Shown here: positions 11,933 through 28,353 of the stretch, piece by piece
Position numbering within the stretch: position 1 is the stretch's first letter
How the letters are laid out: each line of letters starts with the position of its first letter
DNA from: Calonectria ilicicola
Taxonomy: Eukaryota > Ascomycota > Sordariomycetes > Hypocreales > Nectriaceae
DNA length: 64,000 bases
Assembly (NCBI GenBank): GCA_020809705.1
Contig: CP085832.1
Span: 1,054,001 to 1,118,000, forward strand
Direction of reading: 5' to 3'
Program-made: the position numbers and the translations under genes
Notes under the pieces: generated by a model
The model's input: only the letters and a program-made list of their open reading frames with translations
Told to the model about the DNA's origin: nothing
Databases searched by the model: none

Positions 11933-14028
11933 ATGCCTCCTCCACGAGCAGACGAGGAGTCATCCTCGAACATCGATCAACCTAACCGGAGCTCAGGTAG
12001 CAATGGCACCAACGAAGAAAAGTTTCATGATGGTCGTAGACAATCCACTACGGCGGCTCTGTTGCGCAACCCATTAGCCGACATGACCCGAGACGAGCTT
12101 TTGGCAGATGTTGATATGTTCGTCGAGGAGAAAGGACTGAGCGAACATCGCGAAGATTTCCGGAAGGGAGCCCTTATCGCCCAAGTGAGCAACAAGAAGG
12201 GCGGGTTTGAGAACATCGACATCCTCAACGAAGAAGAGAAATGCATCCTTCGCAAGGAAGAATCGAATCGCTGGCATCAGCCATTTATGCTGTACTTTTT
12301 ATGCACCCTATGTGCTGGCTCTGCAATCGTTCAAGGAATGGATCAAACCGCCGTTAATGGCGCCCAAGTAGGCATTGCGAACCCACGAAAGCATCATGTG
12401 CATTAACAAAAGGAATAGGAATTTTACTATCAAGAATTTGGCATTACAAATCTGTGGATGAGAGGACTTCTCAATGGAGCACCGTACCTCTGTTCAGCTC
12501 TTGTTGGATGTTGGACCAATCCAATTCTCAACAAGTGGTTTGGGCGGCGAGGAACAATCTTTATTTCTTGCTTCGTTTCAGTAGTTACCGGATTTTGGAT
12601 GGCTGTCTGTGAATCGTGCGTATGAACTATTTGATTTATTTTCCTCTTTGCTAACCAGATGAAGATGGGGTAATTTGCTTGCAGCACGTTTTATGCTTGG
12701 ATTTGCGGTTGGTGCAAAATCCAGTACTACCCCGGTATACTCTGCCGAGTCCACACCCAAGAACATTCGCGGAGCTCTCACCATGATGTGGCAGGTGTGT
12801 CTTCCCCAAAGTAAACGTTTTGCTGCGTTGGCACTGATAAGACTTGAAGATGTGGACTGCCTTTGGAATTGCTCTTGGCTTCATCGTCTCAGTTGCATTC
12901 CAAAACACGGACTTTTTGGGCGAAAATTCGCAATGGCGATGGATGTTGGCATCAACCTCGATTCCACCTCTTATAGTTATGGTTCAAGTCTACTTCTGCC
13001 CTGAGAGTCCTCGTTGGTATATGGAGAAGGGTCGCTATGACAAAGCGTACCGATCAGTGACGCGATTGCGACACCATCCCATCCAAGCAACTCGTGACAT
13101 GTATTACGCCTATAAGCTTTTGCAGATAGAGAGGAAACAACGGGAGGGAAGGAACCTTCTTAAGGAATTTTTCACCGTTCGCCGCAATAGACGCGCCGCC
13201 CAGAGCGCTTGGTTTTGTATGGTGAGTGGATCTTGTCATCAGTACGCCTCGCCGACTCTAACGGGACCATAGTTTATGCAACAATTTTGCGGTGTCAACG
13301 TCATTGCATATTATTCCACTTCAATTTTTATTGCTAGTGGATACTCAAGATCCTCAGCGCTTCTGGTGTCCATGGGCGGCGGATTGATTAACTGGTTGTT
13401 TGCAATCCCGGCGATTTATACCATCGATACTTTTGGTCGACGCAATCTTCTCCTCGTCACATTCCCTCTAATGGCAATTTGCCTATTTTTTACGGGATTT
13501 ACCTTCCTAATTAATGACCAGCAGACCAGGTTGGCATGCGTCACTACAGGCCTCTATCTCTTCATGGCAGTTTACTCTCCCGGAGAAGGCCCAGTGCCCT
13601 TCACCTACAGCGCCGAGGCATTCCCTCTCCATATCAGAGACATAGGCATGTCCTCAAGTACAGCAATTACTTGGGGATTTAATTTTATCATTAGTCTCAC
13701 CTGGCCAAAATTGGTCGATGCATTCGGAGATACTGGCGCCTTTTGTTGGTATGCAGGTTGGAACATTTTTGGATGGATCTTTGCCTACTTCTTACTCCCA
13801 GAGACCAAGAACCTCACGCTGGAGGAGCTGGATAATGTTTTCAGCATGAAGAACCGAGAACATGCAGGGTATTACACCAGAAAGCTGCCGTGGTACATCA
13901 AAAAGTACATTCTACGACAAGATGTAGAGTACTTTGCGCCGTTGTATGAGTTTGCGGAGGATGCGGATGGCTCTGCCTCATATAACACTCGACCTTATCA
14001 CAACGAGAGAGTTGTTTCATCCACTTAA
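11933..14028 (+). CDS. MFS sugar/polyol transporter
   Basis: Exons 11933-12367, 12419-12615, 12665-12794, 12850-13221 and 13273-14028 give 629 residues; the introns are 49-55 bases. It is a plasma-membrane proton symporter of the sugar porter family, judging from MDQTAVNGAQ in the first membrane segment, RFMLGFAVGAKSSTTPVYSAE, the mid-loop PESPRWYMEKGR, QQFCGVNVIAYYSTSIF, and the closing PETKNLTLEELDNVF. The long N-terminal cytosolic tail contains NPLADMTRDELLADVDMFVE, a hallmark of one fungal subfamily close to myo-inositol-type transporters. The third exon start (after AAG at 12664) is set by the frame; neighbouring AGs give stops. The substrate is not decidable. The tail after the last membrane helix is about 70 residues. 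Confidence 0.88.
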
Positions 14029-14293: not shown

Positions 14294-17107
14294 CTAGCCT
14301 CTACGCCCATGTCCCATTGATGTCTGTGGCACGACAGATTGCTGTGCTGGTGAACTAAACTGGATAGGACACCCTGGAATTAGAGGGACCATTATATAAG
14401 GAACATTGTTGAGCATGCCGTTTGTGGAGCTCAATTGGAGCTGCTGAGACGCTTGAGGCGATTCCCGATTAACAAACGCTGGCGGGAAGCCGGCAACCTC
14501 GCCAGAGGCTAGACGGCGACCGTTGAATACTTGAGTTTCCTGAGAGTCTCGCCAACCGCTGGGCTGCGGTGGTGCTGAAGGAGGCGGCGTTGGGGCCGGA
14601 GGTCCAGATGGAGGTGGCTGCATCTGCCTTGGCAGACTGCGAAGGCGTTGCTGCCCTTCTGAACCAGATTGGTCCTCCAAGAACTCTCCACTCATGGCCC
14701 TGGCACCACTTCCCGTGCCGGGTTCACTTCTGCTCTGACCATCTCCGGCCATGTCGCCATGGACTTCCTGTCTACTGCTATCACGCTGGGTTTGATGCTC
14801 GATGTCGGTCAGATGGCCAGAATTCTCAAGCCCAGAGCTGGAAGGTGGTGTGTGAATGGGCTGTGTCGGAGACTCTAGACTCTGGACACTCGCCCCACCA
14901 CGAGCTGTCACATAGCCATCTGGGGTGTACAAGCGCTCCCCGGGGGTCACATGTGGTCCATTTCCGTTCGGGAAATCTTCTGGGAAACTGACACTGGACT
15001 GTGCATCCTCGTTACCAGAATGATCCGCCACACTTGCCCTCATGTTGTAGTACTGCTGGAAAGGCGCTTCGGGATCTGGCTGGGGGGGCATCTGGGTTCT
15101 TTCGGGAGCTATCCTTTGGTGTTGTCGTTCCCGGTATGGATTCCGAGGGGACAATCCAGGGATATTACTGGAACCAGAGCCTCGATTGGAGCGGTCGAAG
15201 TTCCTTGGGGTTGGTGGTACAGATGATGCCGTGGATTCATCATCAGTGGAGAAGTATTGTTGGGAAGGAAGATAGGCTGAAGGGTGCGACCGGAGCTGTG
15301 CCTGATCTTCATGCCCCCAGTTATTCTGCTGCTGCACTTCGCCGAAGTATTGCTTCTCCCCAAGTCCTGCAAATTGGAAACTCTCCTGTGAAGATTGCGA
15401 ATCCCGAATGTGAGGTCGAAAGGAAATTTGCGGTCGGACGTTGGAAAATGGATTGGAAGCTGGTAGCTCATTTGCTGGATCCGGGAGGGCTGGGGCCTGG
15501 GTTCCGACTACAATTCGCGGCTTTTGATGTCTCTGTATGTTGTTGATTTGCAGGTCGGCTAGAGTTCCGTTGGTGTGTCGTCGCAGGTCCTGATAGATCT
15601 TTTCGTTTTCAGCCTTGAGCTTCTCATCCAAACTCTGTTTAACCATTTCAGCAATTCGCTTGCGCATCTCCTCGTCTGCCGCCCGCCGGCTCGCTTCTTG
15701 TCGTTTAGCATCTTCCATAGTCTGCTGGAGTAACCGCTCCTGTTCTTGTTTCTTTTTCTCCTCACGAATCCGTTCTTCCTCTCGAATGCGGATAGTCTCC
15801 CTTATTTCGGCTTCGATTCTCTCCTTCTCCTCACGCTCCTCTTTCAACCTTAATCTCTCTTCCTCTGCCCGCCTCTCAGCTTCCATCTGCTCCTGGAGGG
15901 CCATTTCGTCTCTCATACGCTGTAGAGCCTCTTTCTCCATCTGCTGTGCTCTTTCTTGCTTTATTCTTTCCTCCTCTTTTTTCTCTTCAATAAGCCGAGC
16001 GGCTTCCTTCTTTTCCATGACAGAAACCTGGTTCCCAAGCTTTTCCATCATTTGCTGAAGCTGTTCCAGCCGAGCTAGCTGCAGCCCCTCCTGGGCTTTC
16101 TTCTCATTCTCTACTCTTGCCAAGATGGCCCTTTCGGCTTCTTTACGGACCTCATCCTCACGCTTGCGAAGGGTTTCTTCTGCCAAAAGATCTGCTTCGG
16201 CTCTGCGCTTCCAGTCATTTTCGGCTTCGCGAATCGCTTGAGATTGTATTGCTTCCTTCTCAATCTCAAGTTTCCTCGATCGTTCCTTTTCAGCTTGAAG
16301 TTCTTCTATGATAGCTTTCAAATCTGGTTGCTGGTAGCTTTCGGAAGGTTTATCAATCCTGCCATGATACATCCTATCGTGTTGTTCTGATGGATATGTT
16401 TGTGCTGGTTCCTTGGCGTTGGCTTGTTTTCTCTCCCGTTCCGCTTTTAAAGCCTGGAGCTCCCGTGTTACCTTTTCTAATTCACCTTCGATTCCAGCAA
16501 GTCTTTCGGGTTCTGATCTCGAGGGTATTTGCGAAGGGGGAGGAGGAGGCGAACTGAAGTTCGGCATCTGCCTCGGGTAAGTGGAGTAGCTAATTGGATC
16601 GGATGGCGGATAGCCATAGGATAGGTTCTGGTCGAATGGTTTCGATTGATATGGGACTGTTTGTGCACCAGGTCCTACGTATGACATATAACTATCTCCA
16701 GTTGGCCTTCTATACAAGTCTCTCTCTCCTAAACTTGGGTTGTAAGTGTAATCGTCCATATCGACCCGAGGTCGTATTCTTTGGCGACGAGGTTCGGGGG
16801 CGGGCGGTTTTGGAGCCACAAGCTCGATGGTTACTGCAGGCTTCTTTCCAGACCTTCTATTTGACTCGGGCGGCTGAATTCGAGAAGCGTGACGTGGAAT
16901 AGAGTTATCGCGGGATGTACTGGTTCCGCCGTATGTTCCCGATGTAGAGGTTTCGAGACGAGGTCGTGAACTATCTTGACTGTCTAAAGTCGGTCGGTTA
17001 CGAGGAATGGTGCTTAATTGCAGACGACTTTCGTTTTCGGCGTCTGAGGAAGCGGATGATTCAGAGTACGAATTGACGACTCGAGCAGGATTGCGTCGCT
17101 CGGCCAT
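14294..17107 (-). CDS. long disordered/coiled-coil protein, unknown
   Basis: A single exon of 937 residues starting at MAERRNPARVVNSYSE. Residues about 1-200 are disordered and rich in S, R and P. About 205-530 form a long, highly charged coiled coil (many ERE, EEK, KRAEA and EEERIR units). The rest is again disordered and ends in a hydrophobic patch (NVPYIMVPLIPGCPIQF) before the C-terminus. Caldesmon-, trichohyalin- or cell-end-type proteins share this composition, but I see no specific domain. The GC-balanced codon use fits its neighbours. It is convergent with the transporter. Function unknown. Confidence 0.75.
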   Translation of the reverse strand: MAERRNPARVVNSYSESSASSDAENESRLQLSTIPRNRPTLDSQDSSRPRLETSTSGTYGGTSTSRDNSIPRHASRIQPPESNRRSGKKPAVTIELVAPKPPAPEPRRQRIRPRVDMDDYTYNPSLGERDLYRRPTGDSYMSYVGPGAQTVPYQSKPFDQNLSYGYPPSDPISYSTYPRQMPNFSSPPPPPSQIPSRSEPERLAGIEGELEKVTRELQALKAERERKQANAKEPAQTYPSEQHDRMYHGRIDKPSESYQQPDLKAIIEELQAEKERSRKLEIEKEAIQSQAIREAENDWKRRAEADLLAEETLRKREDEVRKEAERAILARVENEKKAQEGLQLARLEQLQQMMEKLGNQVSVMEKKEAARLIEEKKEEERIKQERAQQMEKEALQRMRDEMALQEQMEAERRAEEERLRLKEEREEKERIEAEIRETIRIREEERIREEKKKQEQERLLQQTMEDAKRQEASRRAADEEMRKRIAEMVKQSLDEKLKAENEKIYQDLRRHTNGTLADLQINNIQRHQKPRIVVGTQAPALPDPANELPASNPFSNVRPQISFRPHIRDSQSSQESFQFAGLGEKQYFGEVQQQNNWGHEDQAQLRSHPSAYLPSQQYFSTDDESTASSVPPTPRNFDRSNRGSGSSNIPGLSPRNPYRERQHQRIAPERTQMPPQPDPEAPFQQYYNMRASVADHSGNEDAQSSVSFPEDFPNGNGPHVTPGERLYTPDGYVTARGGASVQSLESPTQPIHTPPSSSGLENSGHLTDIEHQTQRDSSRQEVHGDMAGDGQSRSEPGTGSGARAMSGEFLEDQSGSEGQQRLRSLPRQMQPPPSGPPAPTPPPSAPPQPSGWRDSQETQVFNGRRLASGEVAGFPPAFVNRESPQASQQLQLSSTNGMLNNVPYIMVPLIPGCPIQFSSPAQQSVVPQTSMGHGRRG

Positions 17108-19037
17108 GTGGGGTGTATTGGTTGAGGACTGCCTTCAGCCGCCTGGTCAATCAAATTGAACCATGGGCAACTTATCAGCGGATCGAAAAGAGATGACTTT
17201 CGTCTGGGTGGTTTGAGAGAGAGGCGACAGCGAAGCGACTCTTGAATTGTATCGGGATGGAATCGTGCAAGATGGAAGTGCGTCTGGAATAGCCAGGCCT
17301 TGAACCTGTTGGGTGGCCAAGGTGATGCCAGTACTTCCCCAGGCCATCAACCAAACCCAACACATAGCCCCCCTCCACCCCTCCCTCCATGACGTCCCCC
17401 GGAGGCCGCTGCGGGGGTCCCATGACTGCATTGCACCCTGGACGCGACATATTGGTGCTGCACAAAGCTGTGCACGGCGGCTCCTGGCCCTCTACGCGCT
17501 CCGCGGCCAGTCGTTATGCACCTTGTGTAGAATCACACCACACCATCTGCAAGTGTCGCCAATCAGAGCTAGCCCTTCTCAATAGCGGCAGCACTCAGCC
17601 CGTGCCGCTGTCATCCACAGCCTCACCGGGGCGGCTGCCTTTCTTCCCCACAGCGGTTGGTGGCGAACTGGGGCGCCCTACACTTGCTTGTCTCACTGGT
17701 TTGGTCACAGCGTTGTTTCTCCAGTGAGCAATGAGAGCCTGATGATGCGATATGAATATGAAAGAGCACTTGAGATAAATTCGTCTTGTTCTCCCCAATC
17801 TGCAGACAAGATTGAAATCCAAATTGGTATTCCTCGTCGTATGTCATTTCTGTGACTTGAAACACTGCCGCGTTCTCCCCGCCTTAGTGGATAGGCCGTT
17901 CAAATCGCTGCGGGGAGGTAAGTGAAACCGACCCAACACGCATGAGAATCATGACCAACTATCCAATCAGCTCAGTTCAAAAAGAAAAAGAGAGAAGAAA
18001 AAAATTCCTTCGTCGCTGTATGTTCTCAATACTATCCAAACGGGTTGAAACTAGACAGCAATCAAATCGTACAGCACTTGGTCGGTGGTAATCTGTTGAC
18101 TAACCCGGCCTGGCCCGCCTTGTTTCATCGGCAGCTATCTATCAATATCGACATGTGAAAATTGAGAAAACGCAACGGACCCCAAAACCTTTGTCTGATG
18201 CTAATGCAAGAAATCCCAAGTGTAACAGCATTCGAGTGTTCACCGGTCCAAAACTAATCTGTGGTGCTGCGATTGTTGCGGCAGGCACCCGTGCTGAGAG
18301 CGATAAGGTCCAACCGTCCTTCTCTTCTCCAGATCCAAGGAGAAAATGGTGTGGAGGATCCGGTTTTCTTTCTCAAGTGATTGACTCGGTGGAATCCTTC
18401 CCGTCGCCTTATAGCAGCCCCAGAACAGACATGCCAGTCCTAGGTCCACAATGATTCACTTGGACCGGATGCATGCTGGCTTCAGACCATGGTCGGCATC
18501 CCATTGTAGAATGGCGCCGTGAGTGTGAGCTTGCTTTAGCGCCTATTGAAACCATATCCGCCTTGTATTTTCTTTGGGTGTCGTGCATTGCTCGCGGTTG
18601 GCGTGGGGGCTGGAGATGGCTGGGCCTGTCTGACCACCCCTGTGGATAGTTAGTCTAGGCAACGGTGCAGGGAAGGGTGCGGGTGCCAACCGCAGCAGCA
18701 TGTACTGTAGGCAGAAGACAGGATTTATCAGCGATACCTGCTTGTGACCCAAGGGTTACAACACCCGCTCCGCGTACGACACTAGCCATATTTTCGCAGA
18801 GCTCCGAATGGAATCCGTTGCTGGCTCGCATGGCGCATCAATGCCTGTGAGTCACTAACGCGCTCCTGCTGGGGGTTTTTAATCGCCAAGTTCATGAGAG
18901 GTATATATCGCCACTCCCAGGTTTGGCCGGGCCTGTTCGTCCTTCTCCAACCAACTGCGAGGCGATTTTTTGGCTATCCGATTGCCGAACCAGTGTCACA
19001 CGAGCCCACAGCGTACACTTTGAAGAAGCTAGGAGAC
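17108..19037. other. intergenic, 1.9 kb, no gene supported
   Basis: No open frame has coding character. An in-frame ATG at 18894 could extend the next gene upstream by 48 residues without a stop. Otherwise the region is ordinary unique-looking DNA. Confidence 0.4.
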
Positions 19038-19605
19038 ATGGCTCCCATGAAATCAAGTGGCGGTGCTACCACAACCACCACAACCACCACCCTATCCTAC
19101 GGACCCGGTAGGAGGTTGGATGGGAAGGATGTCGCCCCGCCACACCCTCAGAAGGTGGGTGATTCCAGGATACCGAGAGATGCGCATTTCATTAATGTGC
19201 ACCTTTGACAGGATACTATCAATATCACTTCAGAGAAAATCATTTCTGTGGGGGGTGAGGCCATTAAATCGGTTATCGCGCAGGAAGTTGTCAGCAAAAA
19301 CATCAAGTTCTGTATGTAGCCGCGGATAGGACGACCAGCAACCCCATGCTAACTGTTGCAGCGGGCGTAATACCCTCAATAAAAGATCAAGTACGTATAA
19401 ATACTGACCATAGACTATTTATTTCTTCATTCATATTTTTTTTTAAAAAAAAAAATCTAATATCTTATAGGAGAGCATGCCGAAAAATCCTAAAACAGCT
19501 GGCAATGTGCCAGGAAAGCGCCCTGATGTTGAAGTGAAAGGCACCGTCGTCATGTCAATTGTCGCGGCCAAAGTCGAAGCTGATACCTTTGATTTCAGCT
19601 CCTAA
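19038..19605 (+). CDS. small protein with two copies of a putative amyloid-forming motif
   Basis: Exons 19038-19154, 19212-19311, 19362-19390 and 19471-19605 give 126 residues. All three joins keep the frame, with good donors (GTGGGT, GTATGT, GTACGT) and acceptors. Residues 1-48 are low-complexity with a run of eight Thr encoded by an (ACC)n-like repeat. Two related segments follow: EAIKSVIAQEVVSKNIKFSG (55-74) and GTVVMSIVAAKVEADTFDFS (106-125), separated by a Pro/Lys-rich linker. The second ends one residue before the stop. Both have alternating hydrophobic strands and polar turns and share the S-[VI]-[VI]-A core with the C-terminus of the next gene and the N-terminus of the receptor at 22605. 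Two repeats with a flexible linker is the layout of HET-s-type prion domains. No effector domain is visible; the ATG at 18894 would add 48 residues. The prion role is inference. Confidence 0.55.
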
Positions 19606-20271
19606 GGGGTAGAATTAATATTTAATGAGGCGCACTCAAAGTAGCCAAAAGAATTATAGCGGACGCTTGTCTGCCTAAATAGTCAAGGCACATCAAGCCA
19701 ACGGAAACGGTTTGGAGGAGATGAAATGTGCGTGTGAGAATGGGGCGCACAATGGTTTTGCCTCTATCAGCAGAGACATGGGGCAGGTTTTAGATGTTCA
19801 AATTTAAACAAATGATACACTACCACGTTTTTTGATAGGAATATAAATTTTGACGAATGTTTTCTGATTTGCCACTTTGATTTGGTGGTTTTTACGTTGG
19901 GCGTGAGTACTCTGCCACTCGCGCTGAGCTAGGCTCGGGCGCAAAGGTGGATTATGCCTCGATGCCCGCCCTGTTCTTCTAGTGGTCGAAAGAACTTGAA
20001 CGAAAGCAATATCTCATTTTATTTCATGTTCATTCTTCTCTGTCATGGACGACATCGAGAAACGTGGCAAGGCTTTCAGAAGCGAGGTAGGCGGTGCCAC
20101 AGTGTAGCCGCTTGGAGTAGAGGGTAGCAGCTTAGTGGGCCCACGTCCTACGGCCACATCATGCACGCTCGTGGGAAGCCTCAGGCTGGGAATTCGATGC
20201 CAGACAGAAAATCATCTTCCGTCTACTCCGAGTCAACAAACTCAAGCCTGGATCCTTGAACCATCGCAAAT
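19606..20271. other. intergenic; promoter of the hydrolase gene
   Basis: AT-rich in the first half. A short open stretch from ATG 20046 (MDDIEKRGKAFRSE) ends in a GTAGGC and could be an upstream exon or a chance frame; I did not join it. Nothing else is seen. Confidence 0.35.
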
Positions 20272-21596
20272 ATGTTGAAGCTTTGGCCGTATCTCAGAAC
20301 AAAATCTTCAACGAGCATATCGGATGTCGCAAAACCGAGCGACGAAAAGTACGGGTTGAAGGCATGGAGTGACCCGTCAGAGGCCATCGTCGAGTAAGTC
20401 CCACCAAATCTGCATGGCCGACTGGGCTTGCTACTTATCATTTACCATCAGCGTTGTCTTCGTCCACGGCCTAAGTGGTCACCGAGAGCGTACCTGGTCC
20501 ATTAAAGATGGCGTTGGTTTCTGGCCAAAGGAATTCCTGGCCCCTCAGCTCCCCAAAGCTCGCATTTTGACCTTTGGCTACGATGCCAACATTGTCAAAA
20601 CGGACTCTCCTGTCTCGAATAATCGAATCGGAGACCACGCACAAAATTTACTTTCGACGCTGGCAGATTACCGCGAAAGGGATGAAACAGTAATTCTGCA
20701 TTTCTACTAACCACTATTGTTGGAAGGCTTTTGTTAATTCGGCGTAGACGACTCGTCCAATATTATTTATTGCACACAGTTTAGGCGGCCTGGTTTGTGA
20801 AGATGTGGGTTCACCACCGCGCATATTGCTACGAACTAAGACAATTAATAAATTCTCGATTGAAATCTAGGCTTTGGTCGCCTCAAGAGCAAGCGCTGAG
20901 GAGCACCTACGACGAATTGGATATTGTACGCGGGGAATCGCCTTTTTTGGCACTCCTCACACCGGAACCGATCTCGCATCATCCATGGACCGCATTGTCA
21001 AATGGGTCGCCTTTATCCGACAAGTGAATATCAGAATTGCCAAAGTTCTATACAAAGACTCGGAGGTCCTCGCACGGATACGAAGCGACTTTCATTCCTT
21101 GCTGCGGTCTAGGGCTAATGAAGGATCCCCACCAATATTTATCACTTGCTTCTACGAAGAACTCCCTGTGCCAAGATTTGGCGAGGTAAGAGAATATGCG
21201 CTGTCATTTTATGCAATTTCTTGAACTATTTATGAATTATGCAAGGTAATGTGCAAATAATTAATGGTATTTTAGATCGTACCGAAACAGTCAGCAATCC
21301 TCCCATCCTACCCATCGATTGGGATCCACAGGAACCACAGAGATATGGTGAAATTTCCGACCGATCATGATCCCGGATTTTTAAGCCTACTTGATGAGTT
21401 ACAGAGGTGGATGAAGGATATCCAAGCACACGAGGGGGGAATGCATGGGTACGCGGATGCTCTCCCCTCTCAGATCCCATCAAACGAACCCGAAAATGCT
21501 GTATCGAGGGGTCAAATACTGGTCGGAGGGAAGGTTGTCCAATCAGTCATCGTAAATGGCTGCCAAACCATCAATGGTGACCTTTCATTCGCGTAA
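20272..21596 (+). CDS. SesB/lipase-type alpha/beta hydrolase with C-terminal amyloid-like motif
   Basis: Exons 20272-20393, 20452-20689, 20748-20804, 20871-21185 and 21276-21596 give 350 residues. The N-terminus (YGLKAWSDPSEAIVD, then VVFVHGLSGHRERTWS) is typical of the fungal hydrolase domain that is often fused to NACHT receptors. The nucleophile elbow AHSLGG puts the catalytic Ser at 131; GIAFFGTPHTG and the His-containing GIHRNHRDM (about 260-267) complete the fold. The C-terminal 30 residues (321-350) lie outside the hydrolase and read SRGQILVGG then KVVQSVIVNGCQTINGDLSF: alternating strands and Gly/Asn turns that resemble the N-terminus of the receptor encoded just downstream. A membrane-active lipase effector switched on by amyloid templating is the inference; SesB proteins are the precedent. 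Confidence 0.8.
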
Positions 21597-22421
21597 TCCA
21601 AGCCACCCCCAAAAGTTGTGCGACAATTGCATCATGATGAGCATCCGATTTACGAAGAATGGCATAGGAATGAATTAAAAGAGACCAGATAGATTAATCG
21701 ACACCATTGAACGATTCAGAGACCCTCCCAATATGCCTTATGGGCTCGTGAGCGACAGGGCATTTTCCCCTCTCCATGGTTCCATTTATCCCGCAGCTGG
21801 CTGACAGGAACTCCGCCCAGCCCTAGACCTTGAAATGTATTTATTGGGAGCTGATCAATTGCTAGAGCGGTAAAATCGGGTCGCGCTTCATGAATTGATT
21901 GCCTAACCTGAAGTGCGTGGGGTTTTAGCAACCGTTTGGGAGACAGCCATCGCGGACAAGCGAACTAGAATGCGCGTGTTTGGAGGCGGGGTGCATGCAT
22001 GGCGCAACCAGAAGCGTCCACAGTTCGGTGTTCCCACTAGGATTTATCAACCAGAGCGGCAGGCTGCTAACCCTTGGGGAGGCTCAATCCCTGACCCGTC
22101 TCACCCTGGCGCTTGCGAGGGAGGGCTGCTAGCGAATCCGCATAAAAGGTGGTGTCACCACGCCTTAGCAGCGTTCCTCCAACTGCGCTCTTTCCACCTT
22201 CACACTCATTTCGTTAGATTACTTGGAATAGCCTTCAAGAAGTTGTGCGTATTCCAGAGTGTCGAACGGTTGGATAGAGAAGATAGCTTGAACCACAAGT
22301 GGTCGTTGAAAGGGCAACGTTCGTGATGGCAGTGACAACTCTCCAAGATGTAGAGGTAATGTAACCTAAATTGAAAAGAATAGCCTAGTTTGCGTTATGC
22401 AGAAGATTAACTCTTAGTTAG
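21597..22421. other. intergenic between hydrolase and receptor
   Basis: About 0.8 kb with no supported gene. A 13-base palindrome GTGGTGTCACCAC lies at 22149-22161. The open frame at 21913-22326 has no coding character. The stretch may be an insertion separating a once more compact locus, but no terminal repeats or target duplications are visible. Confidence 0.35.
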
Positions 22422-22536
22422 ACCGCTGCTGCAAACAGCGCTCCTCGTCCGTCAAAAGGCCAGGTTATGCTGGACACTGTGAATCAATCCGTTGTTGCGA
22501 GTGAAATCCATACCGGAGAGGCCAAATTTGGTTCGT
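22422..22536 (+). pseudogene. orphan copy of the amyloid-like motif ending in a stop
   Basis: A short open stretch bounded by stops reads APRPSKGQVMLD and then TVNQSVVASEIHTGEAKFGS before TGA at 22534. It aligns with the hydrolase C-terminus over S[KR]GQ[VI][ML]...V.QSV[VI], and even better with the last exon of the small gene at 19038 (RP...TVVMSIVA...F.S, stop). I could not build a complete gene around it: no upstream exon joins in frame. It could be the last exon of a decayed duplicate, or an unannotated small open frame from ATG 22467 (23 codons). Confidence 0.45.
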
Positions 22537-22604
22537 GAGATTATCCCGCATCTCCATAGAGATGGAATCGTGTCGCGCTTCTGCCATTTATAGAGCTTGT
22601 GTCC

Positions 22605-25600
22605 ATGGATGCTGACCATGATGTGACGATAGCGGCCCATGGTGACCAAGATGGCATCAATCAGTCCGTGATTGCGATGGCTGGAAGTAATGTGACAATA
22701 CACGGTGGCGTGCACCATGGTAAGCATATAAAATTATCCTGATCGCAAGCAATCTTTGCGAGAAAAGAGATGACCAACAATTGCCTTAGAGTTAAATTCG
22801 CCAGGTATGATAAACCATCTATTGCCATCACAATCCCATAGCTGACCAAGTAGTGCACAACGAGCGATCCATGATCTTGAAATGGCTTTATCAATTCTCT
22901 TCATTTCCATTTTCGCAGCGACATACAAACTATCTCGAAGTCGCCAATAGGTTTCCCGGGACCGGGGCATGGCTGCTCGAAAATGAGAGATTTAGAAATT
23001 GGAGAGATGAAGCCGGTTCACGCTTGTGGTGCCGTGGTATCTGTAGGTTTCAAGTTGTTATGAAACAAACAGAATAAATAAATACTAATGAACCTTATAG
23101 TTGGATCTGGAAAGACCATCCTTACGTATGCATCCCCATCAGCGAAGCTCTACCTATATTTCGTTGCAAGCCATCCCTCAATGGGTGTACTGACTTTTTG
23201 CAGCTCGATCATTGTCAGCCATCTCAAAGATCATTTCCCGAAAGAAAATGGAATTGTTCCTTGCTTGCATATCTATTTCGATTACCGCGATTTCGAAAAT
23301 GCCAACGAGTCCACCATCGTGGCTAGATTAGTCGCCAGCTTGTTGGCCCAGGTTGTCGATTATCAACAAAAAGTCTCGCATCACACACATAAAGCATATC
23401 AAGACAACACCATCAAACAAACGATTCCAAGTTTAAAAACTCTTACCGATATATTTGAGCATGAAGTCAAAAAGTTCAAACGAATCTTCCTGGTAGTTGA
23501 CGCATTGGAAGAATGCCCAAGGGACCCTGGCATGAACTGCAGGGGACAATTCCTCAATGTGGTTGCCCAACTACCATCTCATCTTAATGTCCTCTTCGTC
23601 TCTAGAACCGAGTGGAGTCTGGAGAATGAAATCGGCATCGATGATCCCATTGAGATTTCTGCCAAAGAGAGCGATTTGAAACTTTACATCAACCATCGAC
23701 TCAGCAGCTGTGAAGGATTTAAGAAGGTAATGAACATGACTGAACGAGACGAATTTTCTCCAGAGGCTGTGATCGAGACGCTTGTAGAAAGATCGCAAGG
23801 AAGGTGGGTTGATTAGAAGATCATTAATTGTATGCCGATACTTACTTGCATGACTAGGTTCCTTCTTGCACACCTTCACACGGAACTTCTCGTCAAGGAA
23901 TTCACTGTCGATGGTCTACGGCGAAGGTTGGATAACCTTCCAGATAGCGCGGATAGCATCTTTGAAACTGCAGTTAGGCGGATTCAGAGCCAGGATCGAC
24001 AAAGAAGGGCGTTGGCATCCGAGGTTTTATCATGGGTTCTTTATGCTTCGAGACCTCTGACAATATCTGAACTTTGCCATGCCCTTGCAGTCAAGAGTGG
24101 AGATGATCGTCTAGAAGATCTTCAGGGCCGGCTAGTTGACGAATATGACGTGACTTCGGCCTGTGGTGGAATAGTAACTGTTGATCGTGAAACATCGATT
24201 GTTCAGCTAGTACATGCCACGGCCAAACGTTATCTACAAGAGCGCATCAGAGAGCATGGTATCCTAGAGCCATCCCAGAAAGTACTGGCGAGAAAGTGTC
24301 TAGAATATCTTTCTATCGGAGAGTTTTCCGCACAGTGCTCATCAACTGAAGCGCTCAACTGTCGAATTGAGAGATATCCTCTATTTAATTATGCTGCTGA
24401 TCACTGGCATGACCACCTGAAAGCCACGTCAGACGAAGCACTTAACTTCCTAGCTTCTGCATACGTTCTGGACGAACAAAAGGTACTATCGGGTCTGCAA
24501 GTAATGTCAGACAAGACCATCGCGTTTGATAGAGACATCTCGAGCTTACACCTTGCTACATATTTCAACTTGAAGGCGCTTGTCGACACACTAATTGCGA
24601 ACTCAATTGGAATCAACTACAAAACTTCGAGAGGCGAGACCGCTTTGCATTGGGCTTCGTCTTTTGGCTTTCCCGAAATTCTACATGCACTGTTAGAAGG
24701 TGGTTTCGATATCAACGAGACGGATAAAGGCGGTCGAACTGCGCTCCACAAAGCTGTTAAGTGTCAAAGAACAGGCACTCTGCTAGCTCTGCTAAAGTAC
24801 AGGGACACTATCGACCTCAACATCGTCGATGCCTCTGGTTATACACCTCTGAGACTTGCTGCACACTACGGTTATGAACCGCTTGTCAAATTGCTCGTCA
24901 AGAACGGTGCAAATGTTAATGTTCTCGGAGGAGAATGGAATGCCCTGCGAGATGCAGCTCTCCACGGCCATGAACGCATTGTCAAATACTTGATCTTAAG
25001 GGGAGCAAAACATGTTATTCAAACACCAACTGGCCCATGGTTTGTCCTTTGTTGGGCTGCCTCAGAAGGCTATACATCAATAGTATCGTTGCTGATGGAG
25101 AGAAAGACCGATGTCAATGCTACAAATAGCGAGGGTCATTCGGCCTTGAGACGAGCAATAGACTACGGCCATGGAAAGATCGTCTGGCTTCTCGTGCAAG
25201 ATGGCCACAAAATTGACGTCAATTTACCAGACCATGATGGATGCACGCCACTGCATGCGGCAGTTAAACGAAAGAAGATACGCCATTCAACCATATTCTG
25301 GCTCCTCCTAGAGCAAAACGCGAACCCAAATGCGCAAGACAATAAAGGTCGAACACCGTTGCATATTGCAGTAGAAGAAGGCGACTTTTCTGTTGCCCAG
25401 GTTCTCTTGGAACACAGCAAGACGGATCCAAATATCCAAGATAACGAAGGAAAAACGCCATTGCACCTATGTGCGATGAAGGGTGATTTTGTGATAGCGA
25501 GAGCCCTCTTAGGAAATCGCACTACGAACCCGAACTTGAAAGATAATGACGGCCGAACAGCCTTGCACATTGCTACACAAAATAGCAAGAATTCAGTTGC

Positions 25601-26360
25601 CTTGGTATTATTAGAGAAGGGCATTGCGAAGACGGATCCCAATGTTCCCGATAAAAAGGGTAAAACGGCTCTACACCTTATTGCAGAGAAGAATGACATT
25701 GCGGCTGCTTGGGAATTGATCAAAAAAGGTGCTGATGTGAACCTCAAAGACAAAGGAGGTAGAACCGCTCTGCATCACGCCGCCCATCTTGGTCATCATC
25801 AATTTCTCAGCTTTCTTCTTGAGTACGGCGCCGACCCAGGAATTTTAGACGGAACCCAGAAAACACCCCTTCATTGGGCAATAACAGAACTAAGCTTCGG
25901 TTCAAAATCCCACGAAAAAGTGGTATATCAGTTAATAAAGGGGGGCAAGGATGTGAACAGACAAGATGATGAAGGTATGACGGCTCTTCATATCATATCT
26001 TCAGGAGGTGACATCTCTCCGAAAGATCGTCTCGCTTGTGTGGTATATCTACTCCAAGAGGGAGCGACACCGGATTGTGAAGATCTGGAAAAGAAGCAAA
26101 CCCCTCTACACCGAGCTGTGTCTGAGAGACACCATAGCCTTGCCTTGGCCATGATTAATGCCGGTGCAGACGTAAATAAGCAGGATGAGAAGGGCCGGAG
26201 CTCTCTTCACCTGGCAGGGGAATGTGGAGATCAGGTTCTCCTTGATATTATACTAAAAAGCGACAAGGTCCAGAGGCATATACGAGATAATGACGGATTG
26301 ACACCTCGCCAGTTCGCAACCCGAAATGGTCACGAGAATCTTGATTGGGGAATGTACTAG
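22605..26360 (+). CDS. NACHT-ankyrin NOD-like receptor with N-terminal amyloid-like motif
   Basis: Exons 22605-22719, 22842-23042, 23101-23125, 23204-23803 and 23858-26360 give 1147 residues. Residues 1-38 have no NLR domain but a strand-turn repeat: DVTIAAHGDQD, then GINQSVIAMAGSNVTIHGG. After a linker (ILKWLYQF...ANRFPGTGAWLL) comes the NACHT ATPase: P-loop GIFGSGKT (104-111) and Walker B IFLVVDALEEC (208-218). A winged-helix-like region follows (LASEVLSWVLYASRPLTISELCHAL). From about residue 545 to the C-terminus are 18 ankyrin repeats (TALH/TPLH cores). Such receptors sense non-self or pathogen cues and trigger regulated cell death. The first intron (122 bases) is the least certain; the others restore the family alignment. 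The start is the only ATG that keeps the motif. Confidence 0.8.
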
Positions 26361-26612: not shown

Positions 26613-28353
26613 TTAGTGGTCCAGGTTGCCAATAGTGATGCTCTTAATGTTCTGGTACTCCTGCAGACCGTACAGACTACCCTCCTTACCGTAGCCACTC
26701 TCCTTGACACCGCCGAAGGGAGCCTCGGCAGCGCTGATCTTGCCGGTGTTGGCACCGACCATTCCGACCTGGAGCTTGTTGGCGACGCGCATCACACGGC
26801 CGATATCCTTGGAGAAGAAGTAGCCGGCCAGACCGAACTCGGTGTCGTTGGCCATGCGGAGAACCTCCTCCTCGGTCTCGAAGACGAAGATGGGGGCGAG
26901 AGGACCAAAGGTCTCGTCCTTGGCGACAGCCATCTCCTGGGTAACACCGGAGAGGACGGTGGGCTGATGGAAGAAACCGGGGAGGTCGGGGGTGCTGCCA
27001 CCAGCCTCAACCTTGGCACCCTTGGCGAGGGCATCGGCGACGTGCTCCTTGACCTTCTCGACAGCGGCCTTGTTGACGAGAGGACCCTGGGTAGTGGCAC
27101 CGTCAAGACCACCACCAACCTTGAGGGCGTTGACCTTCTCAACGAGCTTGGCAGTGAAAGCGGGAGCAATGCCCTTCTGGACGTACAATCGGTTGGCGCT
27201 ATAAGTTGAGTTAGTAATTTGTGAAATGGTCATAAACCTAGAAGGAACTTACCAAACGCAGGTCTGGCCAGAGCAGCGGAACTTGCAGAACATGGCACCC
27301 TCGGCAGCGAGCTCGACATCGGCATCGTCGAAAACGATGAAGGGGGCGTTGCCACCAAGCTCCAGACTCATCTTCTTCAGAGTACCAGTGGCGAGCTTGG
27401 CAAGCATCTTGCCGACACCGGTGGAACCAGTGAAGGAGATCTTCTTAACGATAGGGTTGGTGCACAGCTCGGTAGCGGCCTGGCGGTCACGGGTGGGCAG
27501 GACCTGGATAGTGGCGGGAGGAAGACCGGCCTCGAGGGCGAGCTTGGTGAAGGCAAGGCAGGAGTAGGGAGTCTCGGAGGGGGGCTTGATGACGACGGAG
27601 CAACCGGCAGCCAGGGCGGGGGCGATCTTGCGGGTGATCATGGCGGCGGGGAAGTTCCAGGGAGTGATGATACCGCAGACACCGACGGGCTCGCGGACGG
27701 TCATGAGGGTGGTGTGGGGGGTGGAGGAGGGAATGGTGACACCGTAGCTTCGAGTGGCCTCCTCGGCGAACCAGGAGATGAAGTTGGCAGCGTAGACAAC
27801 CTCGCCGGTGGCCTCGGCGATGGTCTTGCCATTCTCGAGGGAGAGAATGATAGCCACTACACGAATTTGGTCAGTTTGTGAGGGGCTTGGGAGGGCAGTT
27901 CTTTCACATACAGTCATCCTTGTTGGCAATGATGAGGTCGTACCACTTCCTTAGAAGGGCACCTCGGCTAGTACCAGTTGTGCTCTCCCAGAACTTGGTC
28001 TGGGCAGATTCGGCGCTCGTGATGGCGGCCTGGAAATCCTCAAGGGTACAGTTGGCAACCTGGCCGAGGACGGTGGCAGTGGAGGGCTCTGTCGCATCTC
28101 GTTAATTTTTGGAGCTGTGGAAAAAGCTATCTGGCTCACGAACCGAAGACGTCAAATTTCTTCTCCTTGGCAACCCACTTGCCATCGATGAAGGCATCCT
28201 GAATGAACAGGCTGGAGTCCTTAAGCTGAAGGTTTAAAAAGATTTTGGGTTAGCTACGAATGTCTCCTTCATGGTGAGGGGTAGCAACAGCCCCTCGGTG
28301 CTGCAGAGAGTACTTACGCCAGCCAGGGCCTGCTTGTGGTAAGTCTCAGCCAT
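26613..28353 (-). CDS. succinate-semialdehyde dehydrogenase (GABA shunt)
   Basis: Exons 28353-28318, 28225-28144, 28088-27912, 27856-27253 and 27198-26613 give 494 residues. The enzyme oxidises succinic semialdehyde to succinate with NAD(P)+, the last step of GABA breakdown. Family marks are ITPWNFPAAMITRKIAPALA, FTGSTGVGK, the catalytic Glu264 in LELGG, and the catalytic Cys298 in CSGQTCVCANRLYVQKG, a signature that separates SSADH from other aldehyde dehydrogenases. The C-terminus is EYQNIKSITIGNLDH. Codon use is strongly C/G-ending, suggesting high expression. The second intron uses a weak GTTCGT donor; the alternative GTGAGC breaks the frame. No mitochondrial presequence is seen, so a cytosolic enzyme is likely. 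A yeast-UGA2-like role is inferred from family. Confidence 0.9.

Follow-up and report, generated by a model that had tools for sequence, protein, structure and literature searches.

A candidate amyloid-signalling locus with an apparently undescribed SesB tail motif in Calonectria ilicicola

Background

Amyloid signalling sequences of fungi are grouped into five families, HRAM, sigma, PP and PUASM 1-2, with GDQN as a provisional addition (PMC12261475). Among the described loci that carry such sequences, the s locus of Nectria haematococca comprises sesA, sesB and het-eN, the last encoding a NACHT protein with ankyrin repeats (PMC3321046). Here we describe a locus of comparable plan in Calonectria ilicicola, a member of the Nectriaceae, located in a stretch of 64,000 nucleotides hereafter called the window (contig C8, positions 1054001-1118000, of a 69.9-Mb genome in 12 contigs). 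A small gene, a SesB-type hydrolase gene and a gene for a NOD-like receptor (NLR) with NACHT and ankyrin parts succeed each other there on the plus strand, and short related motifs are found in all three. Positions below are those of the window.

By analogy, the gene plan is like that of the Nectria s locus, in which a hydrolase with a C-terminal motif and a second motif-bearing gene likewise adjoin a NACHT-ankyrin receptor with an N-terminal motif (PMC3321046). Unlike the s locus, the motif described here lacks GxGxQF, GGTQN and NACHT_sigma, and it occurs twice in a small protein that is devoid of recognised domains. The first-pass annotation of this DNA had regarded the ankyrin repeats as a departure from known systems and had grouped NWD3 with SesA and SesB in one locus. 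Neither point can be kept: HET-eN already combines NACHT with ankyrin repeats, so that the receptor type is not new, and NWD3, which comes from Podospora and has an N-terminal domain resembling sesA, is not the receptor of the s locus (PMC3321046). HET-S/NWD2 and HRAM loci, from Podospora and others, resemble this one in that a receptor bearing a related motif is paired with a protein whose tail repeat occurs twice, a part taken here by the small protein, but no HeLo domain match is seen here and the HRAM pattern of positions is absent. PP-motif loci (HeLo/Goodbye-HeLo, SesB, STAND) similarly place a SesB homologue with a C-terminal motif beside a STAND gene (PMC3321046), whereas the present locus has neither a PP core nor a PF17046 match. 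The GDQN pair of Fusarium oxysporum is likewise a newly noticed pairing of an NLR N-terminus with an effector C-terminus, but it is SesA-associated (PMC12261475).

Results

A SesB-type hydrolase with a conserved C-terminal tail

The hydrolase gene (20272..21596, plus strand) was modelled with five exons (20272-20393, 20452-20689, 20748-20804, 20871-21185 and 21276-21596) and a product of 350 residues. Its Pfam matches are DUF676 (8.7e-07) and Abhydrolase_6 (3e-06), a nucleophile-type serine (Ser131) lies within AHSLGG, and all 43 conserved residues tested are retained (42 invariant columns, plus the near-invariant S137, of an alignment, A2, of 38 of the 120 homologues listed). Judged from sequence, the predicted protein therefore combines the features of a SesB-type effector, namely a DUF676/alpha-beta hydrolase core, a serine nucleophile and SesB homology. 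Its top homologue comes from Thelonectria olida, a Nectriaceae. The AlphaFold2 model of one homologue (P0001) is an alpha/beta hydrolase with a mean predicted local distance difference test score (pLDDT) of 73.1; it matched many solved alpha/beta hydrolases at modest template-modelling scores (0.30-0.43 to the query, among the 50 matches listed). The tail of this model, residues 316-351, is predicted to be disordered (pLDDT under 50), which is consistent with the HET-S prion domain, described as natively unfolded (PMC4518210).

Among 419 SesB homologues found, tails were read in the 120 listed, and 24 of these 120 end in a tail of the same type as the window hydrolase (GQILVGGKVVQSVIVNGCQTINGDLSFA, 21510..21593, plus strand), with a matched core that begins 22-28 residues before the C-terminus. 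The consensus reads G-x-I-x-I-W-G-[ND]-V-x-x-S-x-V-V-x-G-x-Q-x-I-x-G-x-L-x-F, or close variants, and the named sources include Thelonectria, Monosporascus, Halenospora, Acephala, Cercophora, Podospora didyma, Rhypophila, Microdochium and Xylaria. The 24 tails were selected by an expression, so that the presence of the new pattern in 24 of 24 is circular; when 121 proteins were read, P0121 among them, 8 had the reversed expression within their last 60 residues and 3 had the forward expression at another place. The other tails among the 120 included 13 sigma-like, 4 PP-like and 5 other Gly/Asn-rich ones, under expressions and labels of our own, and the remaining homologues had different tails, none, or truncated ends. 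Since alternative motif-like tails stand at the same place, the hydrolase tail occupies the slot of the SesB amyloid-type motifs. The tail is shown to be a separate motif family, retained at the C-terminal end of many SesB proteins; an alignment of it (A1) comprises 17 of the 24 foreign tails and the window tail. A genome-wide search with the typed consensus returned a single match, the window hydrolase tail itself (E 0.02), a search that would also miss the receptor copy described below.

Separately, tails of the form NRQYN...GTQK...GDQ.FG (P0030, P0038, P0043 and similar; 13 of the 120 listed) look GDQN-like by eye and may link GDQN to SesB.

Comparison with known motif families

Signature expressions for known motifs, run without a positive control, gave no match for PP, RHIM, sigma, PUASM or HRAM in the 24 tails or in the five motif copies of the locus. 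This included the HRAM pattern (hydrophobic positions 5, 8, 10, 16 and 18 with Gly19; PMC4518210), the sigma patterns GxGxQFNxx and GGTQNINT, the PP core NxGxQxGxN, and the PUASM pattern FxGxGxQxxGxGxF, each 0/24 and 0/5; PUASM is reported with a PNP_UDP effector (PMC9815663), whereas the effector here is of DUF676 type. The published GDQN pattern (PMC12261475) was absent from the 24 tails, the only set to which it was applied.

Pfam models agreed. HET-s_218-289 (PF11558) matched none of the window proteins and nothing at the locus; genome-wide it gave 20 matches with E no higher than 1, and 4 of these passed its cut-off. NACHT_sigma exceeded its cut-off at two places in the genome, both on contig C11, and was absent from the four tail-bearing homologues (of the 24) scanned with Pfam; one SesB homologue (P0112) has a NACHT_sigma match at the tail position. 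Ses_B/PF17046, labelled PP in PMC12261475, had no genome match at E up to 1. The initial statement that the motif falls outside HRAM, sigma and PP thus holds as far as these expressions and Pfam models reach. The motif was not found described in the literature searched, which included PMC12258605 and PMC5485727 besides the papers cited here, with figures, supplements and most subscription papers outside the search, and its family is apparently undescribed.

Two further SesB-like genes were seen in the same genome. A second hydrolase (L001, C11:1316051-1319845) has a tail over the NACHT_sigma cut-off, and the frame of another (L005, C9:4271394-4275230) runs into GPVTNY/GPVTNN tandem repeats, an unclassified tail. 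Six of the HET-s_218-289 matches are situated upstream of an NLR match at a distance of no more than 200 bases. The 20 HET-s_218-289 and two NACHT_sigma matches would represent several amyloid-type systems side by side in this genome.

Related motif copies within the locus

Besides the hydrolase tail, four copies were considered, all on the plus strand: r1 (19242..19366, spanning the intron 19312-19361) and r2 (19528..19602, the C-terminal end) in the small protein, N1 (DTVNQSVVASEIHTGEAKFGS, 22473..22535) in a short open reading frame (ORF), and N2 (GINQSVIAMAGSNVTIHGGV, 22653..22712) at the NLR N-terminus. The four cores listed by the first-pass annotation are all present, and N1 is additional to them. 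The pattern [VI]-x-[QKM]-S-[VI]-[VI]-[AV] of that annotation, taken strictly, fails on r1 (A-I-K-S-V-I-A), and the 'NIKFSG' that it gave for the small gene is correct once the intron 19312-19361 is spliced, not otherwise.

The pairing of motifs was assessed at this one locus. The search profile was built from all 24 foreign SesB tails and held no window sequence, and the background comprised 7720 ORF pieces from elsewhere in the genome and from the window; as the copies had been selected by eye beforehand, the ranks and p-values that follow are guides rather than formal p-values. In a six-frame scan of the window, the hydrolase tail was the first match of the profile, at E 3e-10, followed by the exon of the small gene at E 0.37 and the N-terminal exon of the NLR at E 1. 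With trimmed copies, no background piece scored as high as the hydrolase tail or as r1 (7.3 bits), whereas 2 did so for N2, 11 for r2 (3.8 bits) and 58 for N1; the small-gene and NLR copies rank within the top 0.25% of the 7720 pieces. With three other SesB tail profiles, the small-gene and NLR copies did not stand out (181/7720 or more as high), and the hydrolase tail itself lay at 67-197/7720.

The first nine residues are similar in all 10 pairs of the five copies (ungapped shuffle test, p from below 0.001 to 0.032), and NQSV[VI]A is common to the first halves of N1 and N2. Splitting the profile gave, for the first half, 1/7720 as high as r1, 23 as N1, 60 as N2 and 66 as r2; r1 matches in this half alone. 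The SesB-type second half was found in N2 (2/7720 trimmed, 12/7720 within residues 1-106) and not in r1, r2 or N1. In ungapped shuffles, second halves were similar only among r1, r2 and N1 (p 0.003-0.021; r1-r2 0.010-0.012). With gaps allowed, N1-r1 (0.10), N1-r2 (0.32), r1-r2 (0.156) and N2-hydrolase (0.14) were not significant, and N2-r1 reached p 0.02. As the gapped test gives it no support, the split into two subtypes by second half, into which the five copies seem to fall, rests on the ungapped test and the split profiles. Standard local alignment was suggestive for hydrolase-r1 (0.001), r1-r2 (0.0045), N1-N2 (0.01), hydrolase-N1 (0.02), r1-N1 (0.024) and r2-N1 (0.036), and not significant for hydrolase-r2 (0.058), r1-N2 (0.46) and r2-N2 (0.93).

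Several results weigh against the amyloid-signalling reading taken up in the Discussion. The NLR exon barely outranks a chance minus-strand piece at 13553 (E 1.2), and the independent domain E-values are 3.2 for the NLR and 0.84 for r1. When longer pieces are scored, 10 background pieces are as high as the small protein, 17 as NLR residues 1-106 and 85 as the 48-residue ORF that contains N1. Local alignment of N2 is not significant with either the hydrolase tail (p 0.30) or the small protein (p 0.66). Codon usage shows no bias for the frame of the N2 exon (0.001), a minus-strand frame scoring higher (0.085), and the NLR N-terminal region retrieved a single protein, P0121, similar on the NACHT side by eye. 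A homologue search with the small protein gave 12 candidates, none at E up to 1. Sequence comparison thus gives each of the NLR and small-gene copies, taken singly, a weak standing.

Gene models of the small gene, the receptor and the N1 frame

Manual and scripted gene models, the intron-containing ones made by eye and script from genomic DNA alone, gave the order small gene, SesB-type hydrolase, NACHT-ankyrin NLR without internal stops. All 12 introns modelled at the locus, the N1-NLR junction aside, have a GTA or GTG donor, and 10 have a branch-like site, which is absent from the first hydrolase intron and from the intron after N2.

The small gene (19038..19605, plus strand) has four exons (19038-19154, 19212-19311, 19362-19390 and 19471-19605) and encodes 126 residues with two motif copies. 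It matched no Pfam family at E up to 1, and its sole other match within the genome is weak (E 0.126). Codon usage speaks for its coding frame, which has the top score of six (0.181, vs 0.019 +/- 0.09 for 206 open non-coding 132-nt stretches), and so do its three introns, each of which has a GTR donor and a branch-like site.

The NLR gene (22605..26360, plus strand; exons 22605-22719, 22842-23042, 23101-23125, 23204-23803 and 23858-26360) encodes 1147 residues, arranged as a short N-terminus, a NACHT/NPHP3_N part with an intact P-loop (GSGKT), a winged helix and ankyrin repeats (Pfam NPHP3_N 3.7e-29, GPIID_WHD 3.7e-10, and many ankyrin repeats). Genome-wide, 111 NLR matches were listed, the window's own pieces included. 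Among N-termini from the same genome matching the query near its start, the motif was not visible by eye in L046, L047 and L048, with L049-L051 left out of this inspection, and the core VNQSV[VIM] showed no enrichment genome-wide, occurring at 4 places including N1, vs 7 for the reversed pattern.

Between the hydrolase and the receptor, an ORF of 48 residues (22326..22538, plus strand; 22326-22355 and 22422-22538) ends in N1 and a stop, and could alternatively represent 5' exons of the NLR. Its codon score (0.054) is low, yet the best of six frames. Joining it to the NLR, for a product of 1197 residues, takes a 63-nt intron (22531-22593) without a branch-point-like sequence and with a GTTCGT donor, found in none of the 12 other modelled introns; we lean towards N1 lying in a separate short ORF. 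No repeat of 18 nt or more in the DNA from 18800 to 22900 marks this ORF as a copy of the small gene.

The surroundings of the locus include, on the minus strand just downstream of the NLR (26613-27929), a gene that resembles an aldehyde dehydrogenase by eye, and, also on the minus strand (14294-17107), a 937-residue open frame with a Glu/Arg-rich middle and low-complexity ends, a local AT skew of -0.355 and no Pfam match at E up to 0.001. Zn2Cys6 regulators are present and, like the introns and the NLRs, are marks of a filamentous fungus; a tRNA scan and bacterial promoter and terminator scans gave nothing useful.

Discussion

We consider it reasonably probable, by analogy with described systems, that the three genes make up an NLR-effector system of the fungal amyloid-signalling type, in which the NLR would switch the hydrolase on through motif templating. 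The general layout of such loci, an effector beside an NLR with a motif at the effector C-terminus and at the NLR N-terminus, is recognisable here in the sequence, with a receptor copy that is weak taken singly. We favour this reading because 24 of the 120 listed SesB homologues share the tail and others carry other motif-like tails in its place, because the foreign-tail profile ranks the NLR and small-gene copies while three other tail profiles do not, because the genes are adjacent on one strand with an intact P-loop and conserved hydrolase residues, because the gene plan is that of the s locus and the P0001 tail is predicted to be disordered, and because one SesB homologue carries a NACHT_sigma tail at the same site. 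The first-pass annotation had already proposed a motif-tailed small gene and SesB-type hydrolase beside a motif-bearing NACHT-ankyrin receptor on one strand, and gene models, Pfam and profile agree with it. Its designation as an amyloid-signalling locus is sustained for the layout of motif C-termini beside a receptor with a related N-terminal motif, the amyloid step being one that we infer. The tail family in SesB proteins, the domainless nature of the small protein, the extra copy N1 and the possible two subtypes go beyond it.

Following known systems, the ankyrin part would sense a ligand and the NACHT part would oligomerise, and the N-termini so clustered would fold their motifs into a beta-arch or solenoid template. 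This template could recruit and convert the motif at the hydrolase C-terminus, so that the enzyme would cluster and become active, with growth arrest or cell death as the presumed outcome. The small protein, most likely a motif-only adaptor or amplifier, might nucleate or extend the assembly, which is the weakest step of the scheme.

The hydrolase and the NLR could instead form the pair on their own, the small gene and the 48-residue ORF being decayed fragments or chance open frames. The lack of any Pfam domain or homologue for the small protein and the modest rank of N1 (58/7720 trimmed, 85/7720 untrimmed) are what such remnants would give, but the best codon score of six frames, the GTR donors and branch-like sites of the three small-gene introns, and the rank of r1 among the top profile matches make this unlikely. 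An alternative that we regard as less likely still takes the shared motif for a homotypic docking peptide, acting by beta-strand pairing or by binding a common partner rather than as a self-templating amyloid; the disordered tail of the P0001 model and the failure of every amyloid-motif signature tested would suit it, whereas the motif position and gene plan are those of amyloid systems (PMC3321046) and the P0112 homologue has its NACHT_sigma match at the same site.

It is also conceivable, if quite improbable, that the likeness of N2 to the tails is coincidental and that the partner of the hydrolase tail is an NLR encoded at another place in the genome. For this speak the lack of a significant local alignment between N2 and the hydrolase tail, the N2 exon devoid of coding bias and the number of NLR matches in the genome. 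On the other side, only 2 of 7720 background pieces equal the second half of N2 (12 untrimmed), NQSV[VI]A is common to N1 and N2, and the consensus tail has no further genome match, though N2 also escapes that search.

Within the amyloid-signalling reading, the subtypes raise the speculative and rather doubtful idea of a two-part address, in which all copies would have the same kind of nine-residue entry half ([VI]xxS[VI][VI]A) while the second half would differ by partner, being hydrolase-type in N2 (GSNVTIHGG vs the hydrolase-type GxQTIHGG) and small-protein-type in N1. If true, two addresses at the receptor would let one NLR, or an NLR with a motif-only micro-protein, feed two separate outputs.

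The new elements are the motif, the motif-only small protein and the possible two-address layout. A published pair search requires the same motif profile on both partners at E 1e-2 and at least 3 pairs (PMC9815663); the receptor copy scores below this threshold, so that other asymmetric pairs may be missed as well. If the proposed reading is true, the motif would add a family to the fungal amyloid signalling sequences and would suggest a switch-on route for SesB enzymes whose tails fit no tested signature, and the motif-only small protein would represent a new role, as adaptor or amplifier.

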